From Flavobacteriaceae bacterium (lineage in GTDB: Bacteria > Bacteroidota > Bacteroidia > Flavobacteriales > Flavobacteriaceae), in NCBI GenBank assembly GCA_030626795.1, contig DAOUTI010000004.1:1-35889 (forward strand): a stretch of 35,889 nucleotides of DNA, in the 5' to 3' direction. Below the pieces are notes generated by a model. The model searched no databases. It was not told where the DNA came from and saw nothing but the letters and a program-made list of their open reading frames with translations. Both the position numbers and the translations under genes were made by a program. Every line of letters begins with the position of its first letter. Position 1 is the first letter of the stretch. Below, piece after piece: positions 11,728-13,453 of this stretch.

Positions 11728-12792
11728 TTGAAAGTATATAAATACACTAAAACAGTAAGATATTGGTTAATTACAGGTTTGGTAATGCTTATCGGCCAAG
11801 TAATTCTTGGCGGAATTACTCGTCTAACAGGGTCAGGCTTATCGATTACAAGTTGGGATATTATTACAGGCGTAATTCCTCCTTTAAACAAACAAGAATG
11901 GTTTGATGCATTTGAGCTATACAAACAAACACCTCAATTTCATAAAATTAACGATACATTTACCTTAAAAGACTTCAAATTTATTTTCTTTTGGGAATAC
12001 TTTCATCGATTATGGGTTCGTATTTTAGGCTTTATTTTCTTAATCCCTTTTGTTTTTTTTACAATCAAAAAAATAATTAATTGGTATTTAATAAAGCGAT
12101 TAATGCTAGTTGTTTTTTTAACAGCTTTAACGGCTTCTGCCGGATGGATAATGGTGCAAAGTGGATTAATTGACAGGCCATGGGTTAATGCATACAAACT
12201 AACACTTCACTTTATACTTGCTATTTTAACCATAGCAGCAATGGTTAAAACCATTGCCGATGTTTACCAATTAGAAAATAAAAGCAATAAAAATAAGAAC
12301 AAGTTTGTTGCTATTTTACTCGTCATTACATTTTTTCAATTAATCTTTGCCGGATTGATGTCGGGTATGAAGGCTGGACTTTACTTTCCTTCTTGGCCTT
12401 CAATGAATGGCAAACTTATACCCAAAGTATTATTAATTAAAAACAACTGGAATCTACATAATTTAACCAACTACGATAGCTTTGAATTTGCCCCGGCTTT
12501 GGTACAGTTTGTACACAGACTTTTAGCATATATAATTCTAGCCCTAGTGGTATTTTATTATTTTAAAAAAAGAAACACGCTCTATACAAAAGCTATAAAA
12601 TGGTTAACTACTATCTATTTACTTGCTATAATTCAAGTAATATTAGGTATACTAACGTTGGTGAAAATCAAAACAGGAATCCCATTGTTTTTAGGAATCC
12701 TACACCAACTTACAGGCGTATTGTTTTTTATTAGTTTGCTGTTTTTATACTTTTCTTTACGGAAGAAAGCTTCAAACCTTAGTTCGACCTAA
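11728..12792 (+). CDS. ctaA: Heme A synthase (COX15/CtaA family)
   Basis: 354 aa, multi-TM; ILGGITRLTGSGLSITSWDIITGVIPPLN, FFWEYFHRLWVRILG, FVHRLLAY, LHQLTGVLFF. TTG start. Confidence 0.92.
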   Translation: MKVYKYTKTVRYWLITGLVMLIGQVILGGITRLTGSGLSITSWDIITGVIPPLNKQEWFDAFELYKQTPQFHKINDTFTLKDFKFIFFWEYFHRLWVRILGFIFLIPFVFFTIKKIINWYLIKRLMLVVFLTALTASAGWIMVQSGLIDRPWVNAYKLTLHFILAILTIAAMVKTIADVYQLENKSNKNKNKFVAILLVITFFQLIFAGLMSGMKAGLYFPSWPSMNGKLIPKVLLIKNNWNLHNLTNYDSFEFAPALVQFVHRLLAYIILALVVFYYFKKRNTLYTKAIKWLTTIYLLAIIQVILGILTLVKIKTGIPLFLGILHQLTGVLFFISLLFLYFSLRKKASNLSST

Positions 12793-12819
12793 TATTCTTT
12801 CACAGTTTAGATGAATTTT

Positions 12820-13080
12820 TCATATATTCTAAGATTAATAACAACCGTGTAGCACATCACAAACTCATAAAAAAATATGCAAGAAAGTGAGTAAACTGGT
12901 TAGTTTGATGAAATTTGACGAGAAACCGACAAAGGAGGTTCACGAACACATTAATATAAAAATAAACGTAGTGAGTAATTGGTAAAATTTATCAAACCCA
13001 AAGGGAATTCAATCTTAGGCCGAACTGAACCCAGGTTTTAATTTAAAACAAAAAAAGACTACCAAATGGTAGTCTTTTTT
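12820..13080 (+). ncRNA. Candidate structured RNA or decayed-element region ending in a strong hairpin
   Basis: No supported ORF; long-range pairing TGG-tta-GTTTGAT-g-AAATTT (12897-12916) with AAATTTATCAAACCCA (12985-13000); hairpin AACC...GGTT inside. Strand not certain. Confidence 0.35.
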
Positions 13081-13082
13081 TA
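13051..13082. terminator. Bidirectional terminator hairpin
   Basis: AAAAAAAGACTACC-AAAT-GGTAGTCTTTTTTT. Confidence 0.88.
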
Positions 13083-13099
13083 TGCTTTAAATAATGTAA

Positions 13100-13453
13100 T
13101 TAAGCTTTACAGCTTCCGTCACAAGATTTACCATCTTTTGAACAGTCATGATTACATTTTTTTGCTACGTTATCAGCCATAGCTTTAGCAGAATCAATTA
13201 CTTTTTCAGCACCAGCTTTTACTGAGTCAATAGCTTTACCTGCAGCATCAACAGCTTTATCAGTTGCATCACCTGCCGCATCTACTGCATCACTTGCAGC
13301 TTCTTTAGTAGCATCTACTGCTTCTCCTGCAGCATCTTGTACTGATTCAACAGCCTCTTTTACATCTTGCTCAGCACCTTTTTTTGTTTCGTTACAAGAA
13401 ACTGCTATTAAACTTACTATAGCAATTGCTAATAATCCTTTGATTAATTTCAT
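13100..13453 (-). CDS. Ala/Asp-rich helical-repeat lipoprotein with Cys-rich C-terminus
   Basis: 117 aa; lipobox VSCNE; repeats VDATKEAASDAVDAAGDATDKAVDAAGKAIDSVK; C-term CNHDCSKDGKSCDGSCKA. Confidence 0.8.
   Translation of the reverse strand: MKLIKGLLAIAIVSLIAVSCNETKKGAEQDVKEAVESVQDAAGEAVDATKEAASDAVDAAGDATDKAVDAAGKAIDSVKAGAEKVIDSAKAMADNVAKKCNHDCSKDGKSCDGSCKA

Follow-up and report, generated by a model that had tools for sequence, protein, structure and literature searches.

What occupies the spacer behind the heme A synthase gene ctaA in this Flavobacteriaceae bacterium: an RNA gene, the remains of a protein gene, or a mobile element? The window (the whole analyzed stretch of contig DAOUTI010000004.1, 35,889 nucleotides) had been read in an earlier note as carrying a structured, ORF-free region at 12820–13080 that ends in a strong hairpin. 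A noncoding RNA (ncRNA) or an element scar was proposed, with a decayed gene as a further option, and an Rfam scan, a homologue search, a covariation analysis, and a copy count were suggested as checks. The individual observations are borne out. The arms of the long-range stem lie at 12897–12916 (TGG-TTA-GTTTGAT-G-AAATTT) and 12985–13000 (AAATTTATCAAACCCA), and the end hairpin is a perfect 15-bp inverted repeat with arms at 13050–13064 and 13067–13081. The gap holds no ORF of ≥80 aa, its G+C content is raised (0.31 vs 0.13–0.34 in the window's other gaps), and the short open frame is present as described. These structures are real, yet they belong to two unrelated features, a MITE and a terminator (Table 1).

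The segment 12775–13037 is almost certainly a decayed, non-autonomous miniature transposon (MITE) of the IS982 type, which was inserted at the end of ctaA with a 3-bp duplication, presumably by a transposase acting in trans, has decayed since, and would now be part of the ctaA 3′ UTR. Its start lies 45 bp ahead of the region delimited in the earlier note, within ctaA.

Table 1. Features at and around the ctaA 3′ end, in window coordinates.
Feature	Position	Strand	Remarks
ctaA (heme A synthase)	11728..12792	+	COX15-CtaA Pfam match, 2.4e-77
Left 3-bp target site copy, TCA	12772..12774		From the empty-site alignment with G009
Left terminal inverted repeat, AACCTTAGTTCGACCTAATATT	12775..12797	+	2 mismatches to AACCTGAGTTCGRCCTAAG
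Left subterminal MITE part	12775..12833	+	97% identity to the sibling on C124 (element 1–59)
Segment absent from full-length siblings, with a short dispersed repeat (~12840–12897)	12834..12893	+	G018 and G009 have a similar multicopy repeat
MITE internal module, 5′ arm of the earlier note's stem	12894..12924	+	97% identity to C124
Nested 60-bp noncoding repeat	12922..12982	+	95% with the C168 sibling; 80–85% in four other Flavobacteriaceae genera
MITE internal module, 3′ arm of the earlier note's stem	12985..13012	+	96% identity to C124
Right terminal inverted repeat, TCTTAGGCCGAACTGAACCCAGGTT	13013..13037	-	~5 bases longer than in the family
Right 3-bp target site copy, TTA	13038..13040		One substitution from TCA
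Bidirectional intrinsic terminator, outside the element	13050..13081		Perfect 15-bp inverted repeat, flanking A/T runs
Small Ala-rich lipoprotein gene, convergent with ctaA	13100..13453	-	ORF with lipobox-like N-terminus

The MITE Family

Comparison within the genome of origin (G000, a draft of 240 contigs, 84% complete) places the 263-bp, decayed, and mosaic segment 12775–13037 in a multicopy family. A BLAST search of 12793–13085 against this genome returned partial relatives on contigs C168, C124, C86, and C104, from which the ends AACCTGAGTTCGACCTAAG and the family pattern AACCTGAGTTCGRCCTAAG in inverted orientation were read; 17 family matches were counted at E≤1e-5. Scanning G000 for the end pattern gave 20 forward and 19 reverse matches, compared with 0 for the reversed-pattern control. 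Paired ends span 92–316 bp, mostly ~263 bp, in many copies devoid of a transposase ORF. The 3-bp flanks are identical in 23 of the 35 elements that have both ends, whereas shuffled flanks gave a mean of 3.9 and a maximum of 12 in 5000 trials. The window copy shares these traits: it is short, transposase-free, and one of many, with slightly diverged terminal inverted repeats and a target site duplication (TCA/TTA) with one mismatch. The one-base difference between the target copies and the ~5 extra bases of the right end are among the points that speak against the IS982-type MITE reading.

Aligned with the sibling on C124, the window copy resolves into three collinear blocks of 96–97% identity plus the right end. 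The family's right-hand hairpin (~110 nt) is deleted after the 12985–13012 module. The copy is a degraded mosaic that lacks this hairpin and carries two short repeats nested within it.

The nested 60-bp repeat also accounts for the open frame. The frame (KPTKEVHEHINIK) is part of this noncoding repeat, which recurs in a single sibling element and, in other genera, in contexts that look noncoding. A decayed protein gene (KKVSKLVSLMKFDEKPTKEVHEHINIKINVVSNW*) would fit the existence of a short open frame and the 60-aa ORF with a similar peptide in the C168 sibling. However, the peptide straddles the junction between a MITE module and the nested repeat, and the homologues of other genera, located in apparently noncoding stretches, show indels of lengths not divisible by three; a former gene is hardly credible here.

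Several side observations concern these repeats. The dispersed repeat (TTCACGAAC..AT-rich..GTGAGTAA) occurs in several Flavobacteriaceae genera and is nested in MITEs here (window 12840–12897 and 12922–12982; L013, L020, L274–L276). A related short repeat also lies within a further multicopy element, which has ATACCAGTTTAACACC-like ends and is often located at contig ends (L280:580-800 in G018 C50; L279; L278; L281 in G009 C76). A second MITE subfamily of ~204–215 bp has AACGTGAGTTCGACGTAA ends (G000 C14:3071, C22:3525 and 14746, C81:22446-22650, C195:5133-5336, C172, and C215; L109–L112, L099, L293, L294) and is closer than the window's subfamily to the autonomous IS982 element of G005 described below. 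Two 22-bp palindromes (AACCTGAGTCCGAACTCAGGTT; L107:489-510 in G000 C233 and L108:524-545 in G000 C9) consist only of two fused terminal repeats, and one of them is flanked by a 3-bp duplication; they may be minimal elements or deletion scars. Finally, a 160-bp element copy on G000 C131 (L074:1-220) has flanks that form a perfect inverted repeat as well (aattaagcttaa..ttaagcttaatt), which may reflect an assembly artefact or an inverted duplication.

Insertion at the End of ctaA

The last codons and the stop of ctaA come from the left terminal repeat of the element, AAC CTT AGT TCG ACC TAA (NLSST*). The closest relative, G009 (also JAKITQ010000058), whose ctaA is 82% identical, has an uninterrupted site. 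When the element and 3 bp are removed, the window flanks align with G009 over the junction TTCAATTTAAA and onward into the shared terminator. The C-terminus accordingly reads ..LRKKAS|NLSST* in the window vs ..LRKKIS|I* at the empty site. The ctaA gene of G018 has the same NLSST* tail; it stems from a remnant of ~50 bp, almost devoid of the interior, that sits at the identical codon. No element is present at ctaA in G009 and G003. In the phylogenetic tree, G018 falls with moderate support beside G003. Because both G003 and G009 are free of the element, G000 and G018 may share one old insertion that was later lost in others, or may each have acquired an insertion at this codon. In at least three further genes, encoding GATase, Aminotran_4, and NUDIX proteins (L102, L293, L157), the terminal repeat likewise makes up the 3′ end in frame; the upstream domains of these genes are essentially complete.

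The sequence of events can be pictured as follows. An IS982-family transposase, presumably supplied in trans, would have inserted the MITE at a TYA target within the last ctaA codons, duplicating 3 bp. The in-frame terminal repeat (AAC CTN AGT TCG ACC TAA) exchanged the last residue of CtaA for NLSST and a new stop, leaving the remainder of the gene intact. Later decay deleted the right hairpin, let the ends diverge, and allowed two short repeats to nest. As the element lies behind the ctaA stop but ahead of the old terminator (13050–13081), its transcription as part of the ctaA 3′ UTR would be expected.

Terminator, Folding, and Covariation

The hairpin at 13050–13081 is nearly identical in the element-free G009, at the orthologous position. 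It combines a G+C-containing stem with a following T run at a gene end, as is typical of intrinsic terminators, and is an ordinary terminator of both ctaA (+) and the lipoprotein gene (-), separate from the MITE. The description of one unit ending in this hairpin does not hold, given that the hairpin lies outside the element. The lipoprotein gene at 13100–13453 has no Pfam match. As a side observation, many ctaA ends of the same genus enter the terminator stem (L179, L181, L183, L186, L188–L191), their tail SKKKLPxG* being derived from the A-run and the 5′ arm of the hairpin.

The separation of the two features also qualifies the structured character of the region. The 261 nt delimited in the earlier note do fold better than shuffled sequences (z = -2.9), but most of the excess is due to the terminator hairpin; for the element without the terminator, z is -1.7, and 10 of 200 shuffles do equally well. 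An independent structured ncRNA built around the 12897–13000 stem and terminated by the 13050–13081 hairpin could draw on this fold excess, on a weak promoter-like match at 12799–12828, and on the terminator downstream. Yet every Rfam family stays below its gathering score here, and the sub-threshold matches of a permissive run center on the AT-rich terminator. Promoter-like matches occur at chance level. The stem shows no pairs with changes on both sides in the sibling copies, and its pairing (75.0%) equals that of shuffled sequences (75.3%); it is an alternative pairing without covariation. Moreover, the closest relative G009 keeps the terminator without the remainder, and the region is a mosaic of repeats present elsewhere. 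A discrete ncRNA is therefore very improbable. What stands of the original proposal is the element scar, with its terminal inverted repeats, 3-bp duplications, multicopy family, empty site, and matching autonomous IS982 elements.

Intact members of the family behave differently from the window copy. Two sibling copies fold far beyond shuffles (z = -8.4 and -5.7). The consensus fold of seven full-length copies (six from G000, one from G018) has 89 pairs, with 92.4% of cells pairing, and 30 pairs are changed on both sides, compared with 13.5 in shuffles and 5–11 in slid controls. This covariation is no proof of RNA function, since homogenization of the DNA arms or a transposase requirement for matching ends can cause the same pattern.

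In addition to the insertion itself, co-option may be considered, either of the terminal repeat as a useful gene end or of the folded MITE as a stability or processing element in the ctaA 3′ UTR, as proposed for NEMIS and ERIC. The G018 remnant, with its identical codon and tail, and the in-frame GATase, Aminotran_4, and NUDIX gene ends are in line with this idea. On the other hand, the window copy barely outfolds shuffles and has lost its right hairpin, the G018 interior has almost wholly disappeared, G009 and G003 do without the element, and relatives differ freely in their CtaA C-termini, so that co-option appears improbable. A broader proposal is that the terminal repeat of the IS982 group is shaped to give a harmless short tail and an immediate stop (AAC CTG AGT TCG ACC TAA = NLSST*; T* in the next frame), that it recurs as the end of working genes (ctaA in two species, GATase, aminotransferase, NUDIX), and that in intact copies the covarying fold has an effect at the transcript level. 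This proposal is unlikely. The decayed IS982-type MITE of the window presumably has no function.

Autonomous IS982 Relatives

In G005, a member of the same genus, an autonomous IS of 1021 bp (C42:6520-7540) has AACGTGAGTTCGACGTAA ends and an intact transposase of 301 aa, assigned to the IS982 family at 1.4e-78 by NCBIfam. Close relatives of this transposase were found in 15 of 400 Flavobacteriaceae genomes. Most of the IS982 copies fetched have AAC[C/G]TGAGTTCGA ends ~1.0 kb apart; elements of this kind occur in about ten other genomes of the family, and several have exact 3-bp duplications. Some of them (L301, L304, L309) have AACCTGAG ends resembling those of the window's family. Matching ends between the MITE and autonomous IS982 elements are thus present in the G005 element and its relatives. 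In the elements compared by eye, the similarity is limited to the ends, with no interior derived from a parental IS. Since the IS and the MITE have only their ends in common, there is no firm link to direct descent from a known IS.

For the CCTGAG subfamily, no parent turned up in this genus, nor was an IS982 transposase found in G000. The latter absence is weak evidence, because G000 is a fragmented draft from which repeats often drop out. Other candidates were rejected. The two matches to DDE_Tnp_1 (PF01609) transposases in G000 are not near these ends, the IS982 transposases of G006, G010, G005 C348, and G002 are not followed by such ends, and none is present at the IS982 fragment of G003.

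Comparison with Known Elements

IS982-derived MITEs are already known in Bacteroidota, namely MITECca01 of Cardinium (PMC9769881). Like the window MITE, MITECca01 (240 bp) is short, non-autonomous, multicopy, and mostly intergenic, with IS982-type terminal repeats, a likeness that refers to the description and not to the terminal sequence (PMC9769881). In contrast, MITECca01 has its parental ISCca4 in the same genome and shares with it the repeat-adjacent interior (PMC9769881), whereas the window MITE matches by its ends only and the incomplete genome yielded no parent. The autonomous Flavobacteriaceae IS982 elements (G005 C42:6520-7540, L304, L309) have the terminal pattern AAC[C/G]TGAGTTCGA[C/T][C/G]TAA in common with the MITE, with 3-bp duplications in several copies, but they are ~1 kb long, encode a transposase, and show no interior similarity to it. 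NEMIS/Correia, ERIC, and RUP are likewise small structured mobile repeats often found in untranslated parts of transcripts (PMC2229807). Their ends and target duplications differ from those of the window MITE.

No description of the present family was found in a limited literature search, which had subscription journals outside its scope. The element is an ordinary one, newly recorded, and a tidy case of a transposon end turned gene end. Recognizing it disposes of a false ncRNA candidate and gives Flavobacteriaceae drafts, in which repeats of this kind go unannotated, a named MITE family along with the IS group that probably helps it.

A precedent for the fusion is MITEAba12 of Acinetobacter, which is fused to gene 3′ ends and provides stop codons and short tails (PMC6382973). 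It resembles the window MITE in this respect, but has 113 bp, folds weakly, and is related to ISAba12 instead of IS982 (PMC6382973). At ctaA, the concrete outcome is that a conserved respiratory gene now takes its C-terminus and its stop codon from a transposon end, and the corresponding site of a relative is cleanly empty.
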